NCBI GenBank assembly: GCA_021464245.1
Contig: JADCRB010000041.1
Span: 2,594,196 to 2,658,195 of the forward strand
Reading direction: 5' to 3'
Source of the DNA: Carallia brachiata
Lineage: Eukaryota; Streptophyta; Magnoliopsida; Malpighiales; Rhizophoraceae
Length of the DNA: 64,000 nucleotides
Position numbers and translations under genes: made by a program
Shown here: positions 3,362 through 19,100 of the stretch, in pieces
How positions within the stretch are numbered: the first letter of the stretch is position 1
Layout: the number at the start of each line of letters is the position of its first letter
Notes under the pieces: model-generated
The model's database searches: none
Told to the model about the DNA's origin: nothing
Seen by the model: the letters and a program-made list of their open reading frames with translations, nothing else

Positions 3362-4470
3362 CTAAGCATTTAGTTTCCCCTTAGCATAGTAATGATAAGA
3401 GAATGCGATATCCTTCACCAGTTCAATCTGCTGCAGAAAAAGTTCAACATCCTTCACCTGCAGATCCTTCCACTTCTCTTCCATTTCAGTCTTTTTCTCT
3501 CCGTCCACCACATGTAGTCTCTCCTTCACCACAAGATTAGCCATCTCTGCAAAACTCTTCCATCCCAACCTCCATGCCATCTCTGTCTTGTCTTCCTCCT
3601 CATTTTCTGTATTCATTCCCTTTCCCTTTCTGCCCTTAACAGTAGCACTGCCACTGCCACTGCCACCGCCCCATATCTTTTTTGACAACTCAAAAAGCTT
3701 CTGTTCATGGGGTTTAGAAAAAGCCTTATTTTCACCCTTCTTCCCTTAGCAAAATTCTCGAACTTTTTCTTCAGTCTCCAAATAATAAACTTCAACTGAA
3801 CCAATTTCACATCAAAATGTAGAGACTTTTTTATGAAATCATGGAAGGCATTCATATCTTTTGTAGGGTCAGTCTCATTTTTTTGGGTAAACTCACAATA
3901 ACCTTCCAACAAAGCAATCTCATCCTCCTCGCTCCACGACCGCTCAACCGGCTTCTTCTTTTCAGTATGGGACTTCTCTTCAGATTCCGCATCCTTTTTG
4001 GCTCGCTTGACCAGAGTCCCCTCAGCGTCCGAGACCCTTCTCTTCTCGCCCACTGTCACCAACACCAACGGCTCGGATGAACTTGTGGGCTCGAATTTGA
4101 CAACCGCTGCGGTAGTTTTAGGCTCTGACTCTGACTCATCTTCCGACTCAGAGCCGGACACAGAATCAGATTCTGTGGGCTCAGCTTCTTTTTCTTGTTG
4201 CTGCTGTTGTTGTTGTTGGGTCCCAGCAGCATCTGGCTTCTTTAGTGCCAACTTTGAGGAGGGCGTCGGATCCTCGGTATCCTCGGACTCAGACTCTGAA
4301 TGGTCGGATTCAACATCATCTTCTTGTTGTTGGGTTACAACATCTTGCTTCTTCTTCGTTGCAGCTTTTGGGGTTTTGGGCTGGGGCGTATCCTCCTCCG
4401 AAGAAGTAGAAGAGGCAGAGGGCTGCTCTTTCGATGGCGCCTTTGCCTTTCTAACTTTCTTACGAGCCAT
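3362..4470 (-). pseudogene. GeBP/STOREKEEPER-like (DUF573) transcription factor with a frameshift
   Basis: Intronless, as GeBP-family genes usually are. The ATG at 4470 opens a Lys-rich N-terminus (MARKKVRK), then a long acidic Ser/Glu region with an 8-residue Gln tract, a basic KRAKK nuclear-signal-like patch, and the DUF573 DNA-binding domain starting at RSWSEEDEIALLEGY (about residues 178-245). At about 3740-3745 a single A is missing from a GGAAAG-type run. The original frame then runs off into low-complexity sequence, while the next frame carries on with the family C-terminus: FSKPHEQKLFELSKKIW, MAWRLGWKSFAEMANL and a Leu-rich helix, ending at 3362. Without the missing base the protein would be about 370 residues. 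The family regulates transcription of developmental and cytokinin-response genes in plants. The defect could be a real null allele, a young pseudogene or a sequencing error. Confidence 0.85.
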
Positions 4471-6048
4471 GGACAGACAGATTCTATTCTAGAAAATAAG
4501 CAGGAAGAATTTTGTTTTGTTTTGTGGTTTCGTAGGAGGTATTAATATTGAGCGTCCGTATATATCTCAGTGTTTTTGGTTCGGAGAATATTTCAGACGA
4601 TGCCGTAATTATTATTTTTAAAATAATAATTGATATTTTTAAAATATAAAAAATAATAAATATTTTAAAAATATTAATTTTTATTTTAATCGAAATAAAT
4701 TTTAAGATAAAAATTATTGAGATATTAAATTCTTTTATTAATATTTAAAATATGGGGACAGAGACGGAACTTGCCTAATAATGACCGTTTGATATGGGAA
4801 ACTATTCTTGACCGTCCGATTGTGAGGAATTTGGAAGGACCATCGATACGCCTGCAAGCTGCAAGCAACTAAAATAAAAGTGGGTCAAAATTAAAAAAAT
4901 CAAAATTAATAGACTTTATTTAATCTTTATTATGCATTTGATTACAGATTAAGGGTTTCATTACTTGGTATAACAAAATATCTTAAGAATTTATCTGTAA
5001 TGTAATAAAAAAATAAATTTTTTTATAATTACATGCATAAAATATGCAACAAAAAAATTATTATTTTTCTTGTCTACAGTTTACTTTTATTATTACACTA
5101 AATGTAACAATTATTGTATTATAGAACATCATCGAGACACATCCAGCCGGCCATTAACATTTACCCACATATTAATATACAGTTATGATTGATCAAAATT
5201 TAATTAATTGTATTCCCTTGTATGCATGTATCGATGTTTTCAATTTTTTTAAAAAAACGAAAAAAATGAATTGATTATAGAGGTTTTAATATGTATAATT
5301 AATTAAAGATAGGAGGCAAGTTAGCACCAAAATTAAAGCATAAAACGAAGGAATTTAGTTCCCTCCTAAGATAATAATGCCACTCTTTTTCCAGCCACAG
5401 TTGACATGATTTTTTGATACAGTGATATAATTATCCCAAAAAAACCATTAAAATGGACGCAATCAATCGTCACACGAGTAAGCCAACCCATTCCTTACGA
5501 GAAGATGAAAGGGTTGCTACTGGCATTTGAAATTTTGAATCAAGGAAAAAGATATGGGGCAGATGAATGGGTTGTCAGCCATCAATCAAGGGATCATGTC
5601 TTCATGTTTGTTAAGGGTTATTGTTTGTTGATGAAAATAAAATTTTAAAATATTATTTATTGTAAATAATAAAATTTTAAAATTTTAATTTTTATTATAA
5701 TATTTGGTTAGGGTGTTGAAAATATTATTTCGTGTTTAATAAAATTCTGTAAAATAAAATATTAAAAATTTATTTTTTTGTCAAATTTTTCGCTTCCTTA
5801 ATTTCTCTCTTAGGCTATGTTTACTAATTTTATCCTTCAAATACACAAATATAAGTTTTTTTAAGACTTAATTGGTTGATATATTGACTCATTAATATAG
5901 TTTAAAATTCTCCAATAAGATAAGAGATAATAATAAAAAAAACGGTGCTATTGAGTAATAGATTTTATTTACTTTATTCACTTTGAATGATAACAATATA
6001 TCACTTTTACTTTTTAAAATTTTCCGTTCAATTTTTTTTTTTTTTTTT
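4471..6048. other. Upstream region of GeBP-like gene and AT-rich intergenic
   Basis: The first ~100 bp would hold the GeBP-like 5' UTR and promoter. The remainder (to about 6048) is AT-rich with scattered A and T runs, and has no gene I can support. A stretch from about 5610 to 5775 is full of repeated AAAATTTTAAAATA-like words and may be an old MITE. Confidence 0.4.
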
Positions 6049-9983: not shown

Positions 9984-12140
9984 ATGCAAGAAATTGAGGG
10001 GAGGCAAAAGTTCTTACTACTAGGCTAGAGTTTTATGCTTGTGAAAATTTACCTACTAAAAATAATAACCTAATTTTAGGGTGGGCAATTGCTCACCCTC
10101 ACGACCATGTGGATCCGTCAATATTTCTATATTTTATTGACTGTGTTTATATAATCTTATTCTTATTTTATTTCAAAAGAAATTATAGTTATTTTTTTGG
10201 TGGAAAAAAATTATAATTATTGGATGTAAGTCATCTGCTTTTACAAGCTCATTAAAATTTAGGGCTGTTGGTTTCCAAGGATTTATTGAAGGATACGATT
10301 AAATGGTTGTCATTTTCGTTGGTTATTAAGTAGATGTTACTATACGATTTGTTAAATAAAATATATGACAAAAAATTTAAAATATACCATTTTTAATAAT
10401 AATATATGACGTATTAGATAAAATTATACGACAGAATATAAAAATTATAATAATAATAATGAAAATTATAAAAATTCATTTATTAGTTAGAAAATTATGG
10501 AAGCTGTCTAACTAACAACCAAAAAGTATTTTTCTTTATTAAAAAAGTATTGGCAACGATGAACTCTCTTTAGACTTAAATTTAAGATTTAGTTTTAAAA
10601 ACGATTTTAATACTGTTGAATTATAGAACATTGATTCACGATATTAAAAGTTTAACTAGCTCTGTTATTTGTGCTACTTACGCTGGTACCAATTGAACGA
10701 ATAATTTTATCAGAAAAGATATATAATTTATTTTTATATAAATTATTTTTATAATTTTTTAATTTGATGCCTTAAAACTTAAAAGTGAGTCAAATAAATT
10801 CAATGAAAATTGTGAGTGATAATTAAAAAAAAAAAACTAAGAACAACTCTGTATCGTCATTCTCAAACTTTTTAGGATTTTGAACTCTAATTTCGTAATT
10901 ACAAAATTTTCAGTTTGGTGCAACAAATTATTTACCAACACAACTATAAACGAAAAATGTAAATGGACGGGTCGCACTTGCCCCTTCAATGACGGGTTAA
11001 CCAATTTTAAATATTTTTAGTAAAAAAGTATATTTTCAGATAAAAATGAGTTTAAGAAAGTACCGAATACAATTGATTAGATTTAATATGCAATCAGATA
11101 TATTTAATGTATAAAAAAAATAATAATTATTTTTTTTCTTCTATTTAATTGTATACTGAATATATTTAATTATACATTAAATTTAATTAGTTACATTCGT
11201 CCACTTTCTAAAATAATATTTCTTTTAGAAATGTAACGGGCTCATATTTTTATCATAAAACAACATTGGGACCTTAAAAAGAAAGGGAAGGAAAGCCAAG
11301 CCTATGGGCAGGAAATGCACCGCCACTGTTGCTGCTATGAAGCGGCAAAATTTTCCTCCCCTAGTTGCCGCACTTGTTGGCGCCATCTTGGTCAATGAAA
11401 ATTTCTCTGGGCAAGCAAACGTTAAAACAGAATCGTATGATTCACCTCGAGAACCGCAAAGAACAATTGAACATTGGATCAATTAGTATTAGAGTTGTGT
11501 CTGAATGGATATTGGAAGGGGAAATCTACAGTAATGTGCGGCTTATTTTTCGAAGCCATTATTTTTAGAGAGAAAACTGATTTCCCAGTAGTTATTTACC
11601 TTTATATATAATAATTCAAAAAAAAAAACAAAAGATTAAAGTTAAGGGTGTTCAATATTCGGTTAACTGAATTGAATTGTAATGATTATTCTCGAATAGA
11701 AATTTTTGATTATGTAAAATTGAAAATAATTTTTAAATTAAAAATTCAATTAACTGAAAATTTTAGTTGGGTTTCAGTTAATAGAATTTAATTACAAAAA
11801 AATTTAAAATTTTAATATGAATATAGAAAACATTTTTGATATATTTTTTGAAAGAAAATTATAATTATCATTATATATGAGATAAATAAATAATTATTTA
11901 ATATATGATAATATTTTATTAACATGTGTTTTTTAATAATAGTTGCATTAATAATACTTTTTCTTATTATTAGAAAAAAATAAAAATATATATAATAACA
12001 TTCTAGTTTTGTTTGGTTTACCAATTATTAATAAAATCATTTTGGTTTTCATATTAAAAAACTGAAACTGAACTGAAAGTCTCAATTTTTGTTCAGTTCG
12101 ATTAATTAATTATAAAATTAATTCGATTAATTAAACCAAA
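9984..12140. other. AT-rich intergenic, short unidentified ORFs
   Basis: The only locally GC-richer piece is 11280-11490, with a 60-codon plus-strand frame (11304-11486) and an overlapping minus frame. I recognise neither. From about 11640 a stretch with 'ttcggttaactgaattgaatt' words, mirrored by 'actgaactgaaa...cagttcgattaatt' near 12060-12110, looks like another decayed non-coding repeat. Confidence 0.4.
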
Positions 12141-12142
12141 AT

Positions 12143-12321
12143 AATTAAATTATTCTAAATTTATAAATTTTAGAACTGACAGCGTGTTAGATTTATTAGA
12201 AAATAATTAAATTATGCTAAATTTATAAATTTTTAAAAGTTGTGCTAAATTTGTTAGAAAATAATTGAACTGTACTAGATTTATAAATTTTTAAAAGTTG
12301 TGTTAGATTTGTTAAAAAGTA
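12143..12321. repeat. Tandem repeat, ~60-bp unit, three copies
   Basis: Three diverged copies start at about 12143, 12203 and 12262. Each runs from an AATTAAATTA-type start through CTAAATTTATAAATTTT to GTTAGATTTGTTAGAAAAT. It lies immediately left of the LTR element that carries the PDS5 fragment. Confidence 0.7.
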
Positions 12322-12349: not shown

Positions 12350-12683
12350 CCCAAAATAGAAAAACAATAGACATCCACTTGTGCTATATAAGAATTTATC
12401 CACAAAATAAAATTCACTTGAAAAATACTTTCCCATGAATAATTAATTCTCATGAACAGACTGAATAATAAAACTGATACTGATTCTTATTTATAGAGCT
12501 AAACTGAACTAACTTACTAGGAATATAATTTTAAATAGAAAATAACTCTAATTGAAAAAATAACTCTAAATAGTACTATAAATAATAAAATATATAATTT
12601 AATAAAATATAAAATATAATGATAAATATAAAATATTAGTAAATTCTTAAATAATAGAAATATTTTTTCCTTATTCCCCATCA
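12350..12683 (-). mobile_element. Left (3') LTR of the PDS5-carrying element
   Basis: 12350-12617 matches 14980-15229 in the same orientation (shared words include 'tagagctaaact', 'aacttactaggaat' and 'aataactct'). On the minus strand the sequence just before it reads GAGGACGAATTTTTTTTAAG followed by a purine-rich tract and TGATGGGG. That arrangement, end of pol then polypurine tract then LTR start, is typical of plant Ty3/Gypsy elements. I place the LTR's inner border at 12683 (plus-strand CATCA end). The outer border is not clear. Confidence 0.6.
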
Positions 12684-12879
12684 TTCTCTCTTGCTTAAAA
12701 AAAATTCGTCCTCTAATTTTGAAGTGTGGAAGAATGAGAAAGAACGAGTTTCAAACTAGAGAAAAATATGCAGAAAAAATTGGAGGTGACAGCAACAAAG
12801 CAAACTTCAAGAATTCTGCAAGAATAATCGGAAATTGGAAATGTAGAGAAATGACAATATTAATTTCTTCCATAATCTA

Positions 12880-14180
12880 TGCAAACTATGAAACCTCTTC
12901 AGTCATAACTGGTTTGGAAGATTTATCATCAACTAAACAATTTCTTGACGTAAAGACACATCGGTTGTTATTTCATCAACAACGTGATCAACTTTTTTTA
13001 CTTGAGCGATTTCAACTAAAAATTTTGACTTGACTATTTCAAGCTCATCTTCAGTGGGAAGACGAAGATCATCACACGTCAATTCCGAAACACCAGTATG
13101 GATTGATTCAGCTGCATGTTGAATGACCTCATCAAATGTATTGACTTAGACACATGAGTGGTCTTCAACCTTACCCTCATCAGTAGGAGCAACAACCTCA
13201 TTTTGAATAATATGAATATTAGTTTACTCATCAATCTCCAACATATTTTGGCATATGGTAATAAAAACATTATTGTAACGATTTAAAGACATACCAAAAA
13301 ATTTGATAACATGCACTAAGTACAACTGAATCTTAAAAGTACGACTAAATCTTAGATGCACAACTTTGAAGTACTCGTTTTCCCAACTTGTAAGACCTAT
13401 GAAAAATTTTAGTACAAACCTTCTCCACACTATATAATAATGGGAAAAGTAAATCATGAAAGATATTCTCACTGTCTTCAAGTGCATGGATTATAATTTC
13501 TTCCATTAGCATAAAGACTCTGAGTGAGTGATAATCTCTTATACTAATGAGGAAGTGATGAAACATCTCAATAATCAATAATTCATGACCAAGATCCAAT
13601 ATCATGTAATAAGACTGCGTACTAGCAAAAGTTTCAAGAATCGATATTCTCTTACTATAAAAAAAACTAGTATTGTCACACAAATCCTCGAATGATGATA
13701 CAATCAGCTCAAAAATATCCCTCATCATGTCATCATAAGAAAAATAATTTGGAGCAGTTATCTGCAAAACCTCACTCAGATTTGAAGTAACTGAAACTCT
13801 TACATCAGCATCATAATGTTGAAAAAATTGATGCTCGATAAATGCTTTCATCAATGGATTCAAGACAACTGGTAATGTACCTAAACTATTGTAATCTCAA
13901 CATGTAATCTTCAATTTGATGCAGAAGTGACGACAAGCCTCCAGTGTAAATGGCAGGACTTTGTGTCTTTTTCCAGCATACCAAAGCTGCTTCTCCAAAA
14001 CAGTAGCCATTCTTTTTTTTTTTTTTCAAGGCAACTGGTAATGTACCTAATTGCTGTAATCTCAACATGTAATCTTCAATTTAATGCAGAAGTGACGACA
14101 AGCCTCCAGTGTAAATGGCAGGACTTTGTGTCTTTTTCCAACATATCAAAGCTGCTTCTCTAAAACAGTGGCCATTTTTT
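12880..14180 (-). pseudogene. PDS5: PDS5 (sister-chromatid cohesion factor) fragment inside an LTR element
   Basis: The longest frame (13345-13863, minus) begins NPLMKAFIEHQFFQHYDADV and continues through SEVLQITAPNY, FELIVSSFEDL, RISILETFA, MFHHFLISIRDYH and LGKRVLQSCASK. This matches the N-terminal HEAT-repeat region of plant PDS5C-type proteins, which bind cohesin. Later pieces in shifted frames (MSLNRYNNV, then acidic LPTEDELEIVKS) continue the homology to about 12880. The conserved stretch from NPLMK to CASK shows no intron, which suggests derivation from an mRNA; this must be checked against an intact gene. Frameshifts and stops make it non-functional. The 5' part (SSLLHQIEDYMLRLQ) is duplicated in tandem (13868-14180). 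Confidence 0.8.
13868..14180. repeat. ~160-bp tandem duplication within the PDS5 fragment
   Basis: 13868-14029 and 14031-14180 are near-identical: both contain 'ctggtaatgtacctaa', 'tgcagaagtgacgacaagcc' and 'gcaggactttgtgtc'. Each unit ends in a T run (A run on the minus strand). One copy carries an extra base that shifts the frame at the LRLQQLGTLP stretch. Confidence 0.85.
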
Positions 14181-14259
14181 TTTCACTGTTTTTTTTTTTT
14201 ACCCAACACAAGTTTACTTGAAAAATAAACTAAATTTAATTTAATTTCAAAGCAAAGGA

Positions 14260-14930
14260 AACATGTTCACCGACTATGGAGAGGCCGCAGTCGACAGCAA
14301 CACGCTCCATCGAGGAAACGGTGGGCTCTGGCAAGGACAGAGAACAGTCATTGGAGTCAAGGTAGGTCTGGGGATGGCCTCACAGCGGTTGGGTAGTGTT
14401 GGTCGAGGTTTGGATGTTGAAGATCAGCCGTCAAACAGTGGCAACATGCAGGGGAAGGTTGATAAACGTCGATATGCTAGGTTCCGATTGGCGCATTGAT
14501 GGCAAAAAGGGTAGATCAGTGGCTGCTGGCCCGAGGGAAGCAGGTTCGAGTGTTGGATGTTACTGGCGGTGGTGGAATGTCGGCAGACCGCAAGGCTGTT
14601 TAGCAGGTTTCAAACGGCTTTCCGAGGGGATTCCGACCAGATCACGATGTGTGAAGGCTAGAGAGATGTAGATCGGCGAATAGTGATTATGGAGAGGTGA
14701 CTTTCGATTGTTACTCGTGACCCGCGGTGGCAAGGCACGACAGAGCTCCGACGACTGTGGTGGTGGTAGGAAATAGCCTGTTTGTGATTTTTCAATGTTT
14801 TTTGTGAATTAGATGGTTGTTTTAAGCGATTTTGAGTTCGGTGATGATTAGAAACAATTTTTGGGATTTTTTTGCACGTGATTTAGGATCGAAAATGGGT
14901 TTGGATTGAAGTTTTGTTTTGATACCAAAC
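14260..14930 (-). mobile_element. GC-rich leader and primer-binding site of the PDS5-carrying element
   Basis: 14260-14770 is much GC-richer than its surroundings and lies between the PDS5 fragment and the right LTR, where the 5' leader of a minus-strand retroelement should be. At 14919-14930 the plus strand reads TTGATACCAAAC; its reverse complement contains TTTGGTATCA, the primer-binding site complementary to initiator methionine tRNA. Plus-strand frames of 78 and 91 codons here are not recognised. Confidence 0.6.
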
Positions 14931-15229
14931 TAATGTATAACAAGTAACAAAATATACGAATAACTCAAAAGTCCACCTGAAAAAATAGAAAAACAACAGG
15001 AATCCACCTGTGTTGCGCAAGAATCAACCCATAAAACATGAAAATCGACTCAAAAAATATTTTGAAATCAATAATTAATTCTCATAAACAGAATGAATCA
15101 TAATTATAGAGCTAAACTAAATTAACTTACTAGGAATAGAATTCTAAATAGAAAATAACTCTAACTAAGAAAATAACTCTGAATAATACTCTAAATAATA
15201 AAATATCTAATTTAATTAAATATAAAATC
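14931..15229 (-). mobile_element. Right (5') LTR of the PDS5-carrying element
   Basis: It begins TAATGTATAACAAG directly after the primer-binding site and shares ~250 bp with 12350-12617. The last ~60 bp expected from the left copy (up to CATCA) is absent, so this LTR is truncated at its outer end. Confidence 0.6.
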
Positions 15230-15599
15230 CCTCACCCAACAAAGCCCCAATAGCAAATCCCCACACCTCTTCAACTCAAACGGCCGCGCGACCATCATCA
15301 CTGTTCACAAATCCCTTTGAATTCTCTATATATTTCATTTTTTTTCTATTCCTATGGCTTTTCTACAGCTTTCTAGTTTATTATTATTGGGTGGCGGCCC
15401 TATTTATTTAGTATCACTAAAAATTGATTACTTGTTCGATCTTTTTTTTCCTTTTTATGGTCTTTTCTTCAAGAATTTTCTTTGGAATTTTTGGGGACTC
15501 CGAAAAGGGTCCTTCCTTTCCCTTTTTTTTAAAAAATTTTTTATTGAGCATTCTCATTTTTGGTTTTCCATTTATGGCTTATCAACCGATTCTGGGTCC
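15230..15599. other. Left flank of the Copia insertion
   Basis: There is an unrecognised plus-strand frame rich in Phe and Leu (15354 onward), probably not a gene. The word 'agcaaatcccca' and a following CGGCCGC...ACCATCAT string recur just right of the Copia element (23270-23300), so the pre-insertion locus carried a local repeat. Confidence 0.4.
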
Positions 15600-16108
15600 T
15601 ATAAGAAATTTTCTAATCCAGAATCTCATATTAATACCACAACCACATAAATAAATTGAATACGAATAAGGATTAGGTGTACCTCTTGTCGCTATGTGGT
15701 AGAGATTGATGAAGAATATGGATTGCAGCATTACACACACTAATAAGCACGTTGGGGATCAGTGTCTTCCTTTTCTACACAGTCAGCTGTTAACAAGCGC
15801 TCTGATAGAGAGAATTGAATGTAATCTAATCTTGTGTGAAAAGGGGACTTGTCTCTGTATTTTTATTAAACCTTAGTTGAGTTCACCCATCATGGACTTA
15901 ACAATACACTCTACATCAATTAACAACATTAGGTCCAAGCCGAAACTCCAAACACATTCTTATTATTTATATAACACACATAAGATGTAAACATGACTAA
16001 TGGATCACTTAATAATATTCAGGTCTATTGTTGAGGTATACATTTAATTCGATTTAATAAAAACAGAAAATACAATTAATGACAGTTCAATAAGAAAATA
16101 TTCTTACA
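15600..16108 (-). mobile_element. Copia element, left (3') LTR
   Basis: 509 bp, starting TATAAGAAATTTTC and ending GAAAATATTCTTACA, so the ends are inverted copies. It is preceded by GGTCC (15595-15599), which recurs after the right LTR (23242-23246): a 5-bp target duplication. To its right TTTTCCCACTT is, on the minus strand, the polypurine tract AAGTGGGAAAA. Confidence 0.85.
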
Positions 16109-19100
16109 TTTTCCCACTTGGACAACATTAACTGGTTTTGTCAATTTTGAAATCAAATTAAGAAAATGACTTCCGGATTGAATAATGACTTTAGTGGCCA
16201 CAAAACATATCATAACTCAACAAATTTACCTTAAAGCATGATCCGGTCCAATGAGATATTCAACTTCAAACTATGGACGATGATATACTATTATTTGTAT
16301 AATACATCCATAATAACAAAAGTGAACAAACTCATGGACATGATCACAAGAATGTGTAGGTATAGTCACACTTATACTATAGTCAAGTGATCCTTCTATA
16401 CTATTGCATAAAAGTTCCTCATTGTAGTCTTTTATACAAAAGCCACCACAAATAAAAATACATCTCCTTAAGGAGATAGCTGTAGCTGAAAACGCATCTC
16501 CCCTAGGAAATAACTACAATTCAAAAGACATCCCCTCAAAGAGACAACTGTACTTCACAATTATGCATAAGGCATGCCCTTTGTTAAGCTTTCCTGAATT
16601 TCATTATATATACATTGATCTTTGCTAAATCTATCACCGTTAACTATAAGAACATTTTCGTATTTCCATTGGATAAAGCCTTTTAACATTCATTTGATGA
16701 AATTCTAAATAATAATAAACTGCAAGAGTCATAATGATTCTAAAAGAATCTTTATAAGAAACTAATGAAAATGTTTCCTTAAAATCTATTCCCTCTCTTT
16801 GTGTGAATTCTTTGGCTACCAATCTACCCTTGAACTGCTCTATATTGCCCTTAGAATCTCTTTGGCTTCAAACACCCATTTACAACTTATGGGTTTATAA
16901 TATTTGACATCTCTACAAGCTCCCACATTTCAATGGAATGTATGTATTGAATTTTCTCATGTATGACCTCTATTTACTTACTAGATTATTTATAGAATAC
17001 GATCTCATTACAAGTTATCAGGTCAACAGCTTGTTCAATATCATAATCTATCTACTCAAGTACACAACACGATCATTTGAAATTGTAGGATGTCTCACTC
17101 TTTCAAAATGCGTAACAGGAATAGGACCATTTACATTAGCCTTTATAGGCTCAGGTAGATCATTCGCAACATTCTCATAATGTTGCATACTAGGGATTAT
17201 ATGAATAAGTTGATATTTCACTTTCTCATGCACAACAGCTATGAGAAAAATTATTATGCGTCTCTTCTATATCAATTTGATAATCATGCAATCCATCAGA
17301 ATTACAAACATCAAGTTAAGGAATTTTTATTACCAATTCCTCAACAATCTTTGGCCTTTGGGGAGGACAATATAATTTTTAACCCTTAGAGCCACTAAAA
17401 TAGCCAATAAAATAACATCATATGGTTTTACGATCTAACTTGGATGCCATTGGATTATACATTTTTACCTTAGCAGGGATCCCCATACTCTAAGATCGTT
17501 TAAACTAAGATTTGAACCCTTGAAGGGTTCAAAAGATGTTTTGGGCACAGATTTAGTGGGAACTCTACTTAGGATATATATCGGTAAATTAATTCTACTT
17601 ATCATAGACCTTGCCATATCCAACAGGATGCAATTTTGCCTCTCAACCACCCCATTTTGTTCAGGAGTCCCAAGCATAATAAATTGAGAAATAATCTCAC
17701 AGTCCTACAAGTACATGGCAAAAGTTCCCATGAACTGACCTATGTTGCCAGTTTTGCCATAGTACTCATAACCACAGTTAGATCACATAATTTTAATCTT
17801 TTTGTCATATTACTTTTCTACCTCGACCTAAAATATTTTAAATTTCTCAAGTGATTGTGACTCATCACTTATGAGGTAGACGAAGCCCTAATGGGAGAAG
17901 TCATCTACAAAGTTTATGAAGTATTTGTTTCCATATATAGTGCTCTTAAGAGGACCATTGATGTCAGTGTGAATTATTCATCTCTACTACGAGTAAAATT
18001 TTTATTAGTTTTCCTAGATATCTTTCCTCTAAGACAATCAACACATTTACTCGTATCATTGTCCTCAAGACGTGGGATGACATCTTTTTTTGTTAGTTTG
18101 TTTATCTTTTCTTTTAAAATGTGACCCAAACACTTGTGCCAAAGACTAAGGCCTTTTAATGGCAAGATTAACAACGTGAAGTGCATTAAACTATTTAGGA
18201 TCAACATTCAATCTTTATAAGTTTCCTAATCTAAAATATCTCCAATGACAACACAATCAAAAACAGACTATAACATAATTTATTGAAACTCAAATAAACA
18301 CCGATGTCTTGAAGTTTAGACATAAAAACCAAAATTTGTCTTATAAACAGAACAAAGAGAATGTCTTTTAAAATCAAAGCAAATCTCGAATCTAATTTTA
18401 ATTCAACTATTCAACAAACTTTAATTCAAAACCTTATTTTCACTCTTTTTTCATTCCCTAGCAAAAGATTGACTTCATGCTTATACTTGGCTTTTGCTTG
18501 TTCTTGAACCCTTTTAAAATTTTTAATAATATAGATAGATGTATCAGAGTTAATTCACCAAGAATTGAAATAAACATATCTCAAACTGAATTTAAAACAA
18601 ATAGAATTCAAAGCAAACAAAAGTAAAAGAATTATCCAATTAATTATCTTTATTATTTTTTCGGGGTAATTCTTATAGACAAAACAATCATTTTTTCTGT
18701 GACCAACTTTCTTACAGAACCAACATTCATATTTTATTATCATAGGTTTAGGACCCATGTGCTTTTGACCGGGATTTCTATTAGGACCACCCTTTTCTTG
18801 GAATTCAATTTTTTTTTTTATTTATAAAAAAGACTTGTTCGGGCGTGGCTAATTAACTAATTCATACTCTCTGAAGCCTCATGTTTCATTATACCCTCTT
18901 TCCATCTCTTATAGTTTTCACTAGCCAGAAATTCAATTGCAAAGAACTGATCATTCGTAGAAATAACATATAGAATTGAAAAACAATGATAGCAGAATTA
19001 ATCAAATATTGTAGGCAATAACAATAATTCATATTTAATTATTAGAAATTTCAAAGTATCATTACAAACTCCCATGTGGATGTAGTAGGTAATAAATTCT

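Follow-up and report, generated by a model that had tools for sequence, protein, structure and literature searches.

A captured piece of the cohesin gene PDS5C in a family of LTR elements of Carallia brachiata, with statistical support for past constraint on its reading frame

How does part of the gene for a host cohesin factor come to lie between two long terminal repeats (LTRs), and did its reading frame ever matter to the element that carries it? These questions are raised by a 64,000-nucleotide stretch of the Carallia brachiata genome (the window; contig JADCRB010000041.1, positions 2,594,196 to 2,658,195). On its minus strand, at 12353-15241, lies a 2.9-kb LTR element with an intron-less 5' piece of PDS5C, comprising the start codon, the N-terminal HEAT region and the start of the acidic tail. 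An earlier note on this DNA had proposed an LTR element carrying a PDS5 fragment in its own orientation, and our results agree on both points: the piece matches the Pfam PDS5 family (E=5.5e-27) and lies on the minus strand like the element, the two LTRs are 84.8% identical, and copies elsewhere in the genome have such LTRs, one of them with a target duplication. We consider it probable that the window copy is a dead member of a non-autonomous LTR family with a captured PDS5C, the HEAT part of which was constrained, with a decoy or tether as the favoured role of its product.

Origin of the PDS5C piece

A search of the 337.5-Mb assembly with a PDS5C-like protein of Theobroma (P0058) found two intron-bearing host genes, H117 on contig C117 and H91 on C91, together with two diverged paralogs (C140 and C1) and many intron-less places; the PDS5-like places at C58:8538916, C14:1211359 and C58:704575 lie outside the set that was fetched. 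In H117 five introns interrupt the captured stretch: one of about 2.4 kb follows LLD, and the others lie after QMK, inside IR/D, after NE and after NK. The splice sites displayed, which do not include the donor of intron 1, are GT-AG. The window copy crosses all five positions without an intron-sized insert. It retains the start codon, has lost the 3' two thirds of PDS5C and lies in sense orientation within the element; these features bear out the capture at the level of mRNA that had been suggested for it. No parent intron was seen in the fragment and, among the tblastn matches listed, no PDS5 homology lies outside the LTRs, so that the capture reading stands on both counts. The frame from NPLMK to CASK, described in the earlier note as apparently intron-less, is indeed free of host introns, whereas its reading is interrupted by frameshifts. 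Exon positions deduced from a misannotated Camellia protein and the size of a Cannabis amplicon (PMC12373676) were dropped, and the host genes were used in their place.

Among 121 proteins, the nearest to the host PDS5C piece are those of Hevea and Jatropha. A phylogeny was built from 32 main-group copies, the two older copies R132 (contig C132) and L053 (contig C69), and three host genes; the element copies form one clade in it (support 100), beside H91 (87). The tree and the codon models leave out L034, which equals L028, as well as L043, L046, L047, L049, L050, L051 and L052, whose alignment was poor or partial. R132 and L053 are themselves parts of LTR elements that belong to this family. 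Since the element copies form a single clade beside one host gene, the simplest reading is one capture of a spliced PDS5C transcript.

We propose that the family captured a spliced PDS5C mRNA of its own host lineage, from the start codon as far as about residue 330, and that the likeliest mechanism was a template switch between the element RNA and a packaged PDS5C mRNA in the course of reverse transcription. Another route would be a processed PDS5C pseudogene, made by a long interspersed nuclear element (LINE), that landed in an LTR element and was then amplified. The absence of introns and the A-rich stretch directly before the start codon would fit such an origin. LINE retrocopies, however, usually retain their 3' end and poly(A) and lose their 5' end, whereas here the 5' coding end is retained and the 3' two thirds are gone; template switching is favoured for this reason, and we regard the LINE route as very unlikely.

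In both host PDS5C genes one exon (VARKLGEKVLESC...) appears to be duplicated in tandem: its units lie at 2061-2204 and 2250-2456 of the C117 locus (L029), where the first is degenerate, and the C91 locus (L030) has a similar stretch. A Vicia villosa protein annotated as PDS5C-like (P0121, 255 aa) consists of the HEAT part only; it may be an N-terminal PDS5C of independent origin or reflect an incomplete gene model.

The LTR family and its copy in the window

A DNA search of the genome with the PDS5 piece, of the kind that the earlier note had suggested, gave 45 matches at no fewer than 40 distinct places (at least 40), with 71-79% identity to the window copy (best 40 of 53 candidates). Among them, L010/L011 and L013/L015 are duplicated insertions with common flanking DNA, L028/L034 are identical in their PDS5 part, and L039/L041 are 94.4% identical over the 1.4-kb pieces compared, flanks not included. 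Twenty copies were taken with their flanks as 9-kb loci. The 3' segment and the 3' LTR stand beside PDS5 in all 20 and an alignable LTR pair is present in 15, with an architecture of LTR - leader - PDS5 - 3' segment - LTR and spans of 2.4-3.7 kb in the alignable copies, about 1.1 kb of which is PDS5. One copy, L020, is complete: both of its LTRs, about 450 bp each, run from TGATG to CATCA, and the 5-bp target duplication CCTAT flanks it on both sides. The flanks of L019, the only other copy scored for a target duplication, are GTATG and GTAGG, a match at four of five positions. At the level of the family, the TG..CA LTR pairs, target duplication, primer site and purine tract of an LTR retrotransposon are all present.

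Neither gag nor pol was seen in the family; the Pfam search covered the leader open reading frames (ORFs) of the window copy (14560-14808) and of five sister copies, which gave no match and no recognised gag or pol domain. A search with the LTR (at least 49 matches, best 40 of 102 candidates) brought up no autonomous gag-pol partner, and two LTR places without PDS5 (L058 and L059) held no long pol-like ORF by eye. With neither gene seen, the element is read as non-autonomous. The chimera would probably have been amplified to its 40 or more places on the machinery of a Ty3/Gypsy-like partner; this likeness is taken from the apparent pol end and the primer site described below, and no pol by which to place the family in Ty3/Gypsy was seen in any copy.

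The insertions are old. Between paired LTRs the Kimura two-parameter distance (K2P) averages 0.175 (range 0.145-0.245) over 15 pairs, namely the window copy and 14 loci, with both members of the duplicated pair L010 and L011 included. At substitution rates of 1.3e-8 and 7e-9 per site per year, the insertions date to roughly 7 and 12.5 million years, respectively, as one old wave. At C36:1222866-1224357, which partly coincides with L046, three LTR stretches lie about 620 bp apart, each adjoining a PDS5 match; both extra PDS5 matches correspond to window 13685-13807, and the element seems to have expanded there in tandem. Several family LTRs are also clustered in a row at C1:5057291-5058775 and in L026.

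The window copy follows the family plan, with every feature on the minus strand. The 5' LTR (TGTTGGG...CATTA, 311 bp, 14931..15241) aligns with the 3' LTR (TGATGGGG..., 12353..12683) over 244 sites at a K2P of 0.172; its ends were set by hand, guided by the LTRs of L019 and L020 (TG...CATCA), and it also matches family LTRs at other sites in the genome. The 3' LTR has lost about 50 nt of its 3' end, so that a target duplication cannot be assessed in this copy. Beside this shortened end, AT-rich 58-bp direct repeats at 12122-12321 may mark the deletion or another element. Next to the 5' LTR stands a decayed primer-binding site, read off the sequence as TGGTATCAAAAC (14916..14927), which is identical at 10 of 12 positions to the TGGTATCAGAGC that adjoins the LTR in the sister copies L010 and L011. 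A tRNA-Met primer site had been proposed here; the site itself is recognisable in decayed form, and its tRNA-iMet is presumed by us. The GC-rich leader from this site to the PDS5 start (14197..14915) has matching pieces in 16 of the 20 flanked copies.

The beginning of PDS5 is present twice. Unit 1 of this tandem duplication (14032..14196) comprises the A-rich stretch, a start codon at 14175-14173, exon 1 and the start of exon 2, and unit 2 (13866..14026) has its start codon at 14010-14008 and runs into the remaining PDS5. The duplication measures 165 bp in the window, and all 20 flanked copies have the stretch a single time, where PDS5 begins. It had escaped the earlier note, which placed the PDS5 piece at 12880-14180; the piece is real, and we measure it from 14175 (with the second start at 14010) down to 12975, at about residue 330. 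It includes an intron-less 183-aa open frame of the N-terminal HEAT region (13345..13896), which carries the Pfam match, is 45% identical without gaps over 185 residues to a Malus PDS5C protein (P0001; tblastn) and also matches solved Pds5 structures. The HEAT end and acidic tail continue in another frame, with stops and frameshifts, at 12975..13334, where tblastn matches plant PDS5C residues 225-332, weakening toward the end; frameshifts thus break the PDS5 reading of this copy. The 3' internal segment common to the family (12697..12974) ends in LEDEFFLSKRE, which we take to resemble a Gypsy pol end, and its 12690-12900 part adjoins PDS5 in 20 of 20 flanked copies. Ahead of the 3' LTR a polypurine tract-like AAGCAAGAGAGAA can be read off the sequence (12684..12696), with purine-rich counterparts in L009, L019, L020, L023 and L025.

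Selection on the captured frame

The ratio of non-synonymous to synonymous substitution rates (omega) allows us to gain insight into whether the captured frame mattered as protein. By codon likelihood the PDS5 frame of the main group has an omega of 0.632, with twice the log-likelihood difference (2dlnL) from an omega of 1 at 78. In the remaining five frames omega is 1.04, 1.29, 0.93, 0.80 and 1.30, and for pseudo-codons in the 3' noncoding and LTR parts it is 0.88, 1.17 and 0.99. When 35 of the 36 non-duplicate main-group copies (L049 was dropped) are aligned by MAFFT without regard to frame and given a tree of their own, omega is 0.682 (bootstrap 0.61-0.76), unchanged when the window copy is left out, and the other frames range over 0.76-1.15. 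One hundred neutral simulations, run with context-dependent decay rates from the data, yielded omega values of 0.88-1.16; their stops numbered 112-196, where 90 are observed. Along the frame, omega rises from 0.555 in the first half of the HEAT region to 0.724 in the second half and 0.955 in the acidic tail; this analysis and the stop count also leave out L011, L015 and L041, one of each near-identical pair.

Omega was also estimated by branch class, and the disabling changes were placed on the tree. Host genes have an omega of 0.135, internal branches of the family 0.48 (2dlnL 18.6) and terminal branches 0.65 (2dlnL 58.7), the stems of the three near-identical pairs being treated as terminal. 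Within residues 6-215, the 29 insertions (near-identical pairs taken once) carry 90 stops and 61 frameshifts, nearly all of them on terminal branches. On the two post-capture stems, 10.5 stops and frameshifts are expected at the terminal rate and none is seen (Poisson test). Stems and internal branches together should hold about 26, against at most four stops shared by sisters, each in a column where unrelated copies have been hit too, and a single frameshift coincidence (L018/L023) that is doubtful; the shared changes were counted by eye and the sister pairs rechecked. From the omega of the frame, the simulations, the gradient along the frame, the branch classes and the stops and frameshifts, we conclude that the frame was held open and its folded part constrained. 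The statistics therefore support an HEAT part that was maintained as protein while the elements were active.

Several observations weigh against this conclusion. Sense frame 2 (1.29) and antisense frame 2 (1.30) exceed an omega of 1 (2dlnL 19 and 21), and antisense frame 1 falls below it (0.80, 2dlnL 18; 0.76, 2dlnL 29, in the MAFFT alignment); the two high values are the expected product of a constrained true frame, and the third codon position of antisense frame 1 coincides with that of the sense frame. The acidic tail is poorly aligned and another of its frames gives 0.83, which makes it a weak neutral control. The post-capture stems have an omega of 0.58 that does not differ significantly from 1 (2dlnL 3.3), and internal and terminal branches do not differ significantly from each other (2dlnL 2.4). 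Terminal branches are themselves below 1 (0.65), though the LTR ages suggest that much of their length postdates insertion, which possibly reflects a bias left outside the model. Finally, none of the 42 copies is intact in residues 6-215, so that any function lies in the past.

Should the PDS5 piece then be seen as inert cargo whose reading frame never mattered to the element? The 42 broken copies, the near-neutral tail, the equivocal stems and the frequency with which LTR elements carry captured gene pieces (PMC13317346; PMC7264820) would all suit a passenger of this kind. Indeed, a neutral reading was adopted first, from Nei-Gojobori (NG86) counts on pairs, triplets and quartets and a first branch model, which were mixed; that model gave omega values of 0.71/0.62 for internal branches, 0.60/0.55 for terminal branches and 0.64/0.53 for the class stemBurst. 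It was dropped because the simulations and frame controls put the neutral baseline near 1 and not at 0.6. A frame-specific omega of 0.63-0.68 against 0.88-1.16 in simulation, the internal-branch value and the deficit of shared stops and frameshifts all argue against inert cargo, which we consider unlikely.

A long first frame could also have been kept for the sake of the RNA, by shielding it from nonsense-mediated decay or by aiding its export or packaging, with an inert protein. The post-capture stems, devoid of stops and frameshifts while their missense constraint is weak, are what this would produce, and in those copies that were displayed an A-rich end of the leader precedes the start codon of PDS5. 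It does not predict, however, that constraint varies along the frame as it does between the HEAT halves and the tail, the latter being poorly aligned, and we find an RNA role alone distinctly improbable.

The third alternative concerns the source. The captured gene may have been a diverged PDS5C paralog, now lost, such that much of the divergence and the constraint predates capture. The stem common to all element copies is long (0.182) with an omega of 0.33, and part of it may represent evolution in a host gene. Against this, divergence goes on after R132 and L053 split from the main group, both being inside the same LTR family, and the constraint on internal branches lies within the family. 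We consider a lost paralog rather unlikely, though not remote; it bears on when the divergence took place and leaves the kind of element unchanged.

The predicted product and its place among known captures

What might a constrained HEAT frame have done for the element? The model of the window frame is helical (predicted local distance difference test, pLDDT, 73.5) and its best match in the PDB is human Pds5B (5hdt_A; template modelling score, TM-score, 0.76 by query length). The alignment behind this model consists of 14 plant PDS5C homologs, so the fold is not independent of homology; it suggests that the N-terminal HEAT fold of PDS5 is present in the element frame. The remainder of PDS5C, including the Tudor part, is missing from the captured piece. 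Among the columns that are invariant in host proteins, 35 are retained and 33 altered in more than 80% of the copies. The APDAP loop, which in other eukaryotes has been shown or predicted to dock motifs of Wapl and Sororin (PMC10656103), is present in none of the 36 main-group copies and in neither R132 nor L053. Because the Tudor part and the rest of PDS5C are gone and the loop is altered in all copies examined, we prefer an altered PDS5 that would act as a decoy or as a tether on cohesin or chromatin to a working PDS5. We put forward, tentatively, that the family may have domesticated a host cohesin regulator: the element would have made a short, truncated PDS5-like HEAT protein with an altered APDAP loop, its only recognisable product, as an accessory factor aiding its own spread. 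All 42 copies read have since decayed.

A very different role would be that of a source of small RNAs silencing the parent PDS5C gene, as the earlier note had raised. Same-strand PDS5 sequence in many copies could supply such RNAs, and decay is quickest at CG and CHG cytosines, as expected of methylated, silenced copies. Against the 6.6-6.7 kb fetched for each host gene, however, the longest run that the window copy matches exactly is 17 nt; with two mismatches allowed, a match reaches 25 nt. Stretches of at least 21 nt occur, in the gene parts compared, in two of the 42 copies (26 nt in L023 and 22 nt in L021), besides a low-complexity 25-nt run directly before exon 1 in L042. Silencing by perfect-match small RNAs from the window copy thus appears unlikely and finds no support in these matches, and as an account of the family we judge a small-RNA source extremely improbable.

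Gene capture by plant LTR elements is itself established, as in Bs1 and the captures by terminal-repeat retrotransposons in miniature (TRIMs) (PMC13317346, PMC4717578). Like maize Bs1 and other transduced genes, the family described here holds host gene sequence in sense orientation inside an LTR element (PMC13317346; PMC7264820). Unlike Bs1, which combines segments of three genes (PMC13317346), it holds one gene, at 40 places or more, with a signal of selection in the captured frame. The gene-capturing TRIMs, of which 30 elements in seven subfamilies are reported, likewise lack autonomy, carry only exons of their host genes and are flanked by target duplications of 5 bp, and at 1,172-1,449 bp they retain more than 70% identity to host genes (PMC4717578). 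The PDS5C element, in contrast, is 2.4-3.7 kb long with LTRs of about 450 bp where complete, a size by which membership of the TRIMs was ruled out, and it is old and diverged with its captured frame under selection.

Closer in one respect are the orchid Ty3/Gypsy elements with AlkB, in which a host-type domain became fixed in a family and was kept through amplification; these are large, encode gag-pol and carry an AlkB-type N6-methyladenosine (m6A) RNA demethylase tested as protein (PMC9289625). The PDS5C element differs in that no gag-pol was seen and its domain is that of a cohesin factor. ORF2 of PvRetro13, with its SMC domain, is another extra ORF tied to chromosome-structure proteins; it lies antisense between pol and the 3' LTR and its origin is not established (cited in PMC7264820), whereas the PDS5 domain is sense-oriented and clearly host-derived. 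Compared with plant PDS5C of the At4g31880 type (PMC4664637), the element version is collinear in the N-terminal HEAT region, and it departs from it in being truncated, intron-less and about 45% identical, with an altered APDAP loop and no Tudor part.

In the titles and abstract openings of the papers listed from the open-access literature searched, no capture of PDS5 by a retrotransposon is described. Gene capture as such is not new. What appears to be new is the combination of a cohesin factor, at least 40 places, the lack of gag-pol and a captured fold under selection. Transduced genes in plant LTR elements have been described as occurring in one or a few copies, whereas here a captured cohesion factor is spread over at least 40 places and bears the mark of selection on its folded part. 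It thereby becomes testable whether retroelements exploit cohesin or the control of three-dimensional chromatin. The family also amounts to a dated fossil record of how a captured gene changed within an element, for which the intron-bearing host gene serves as comparator.

Elsewhere in the window, which holds no Rfam family and no tRNA gene, an ORF at 3778-4476 (minus strand) encodes a GeBP-like DNA-binding domain (E=3.9e-14); matches of the charged PDS5 tail near 4 kb, inside this gene, were taken to be low-complexity. At 15900-18830, also on the minus strand, lies a Ty1/Copia remnant with broken frames, recognised by RVT_2 (7.4e-10), gag_pre-integrs (1.9e-9) and a weak zinc knuckle (0.0013).

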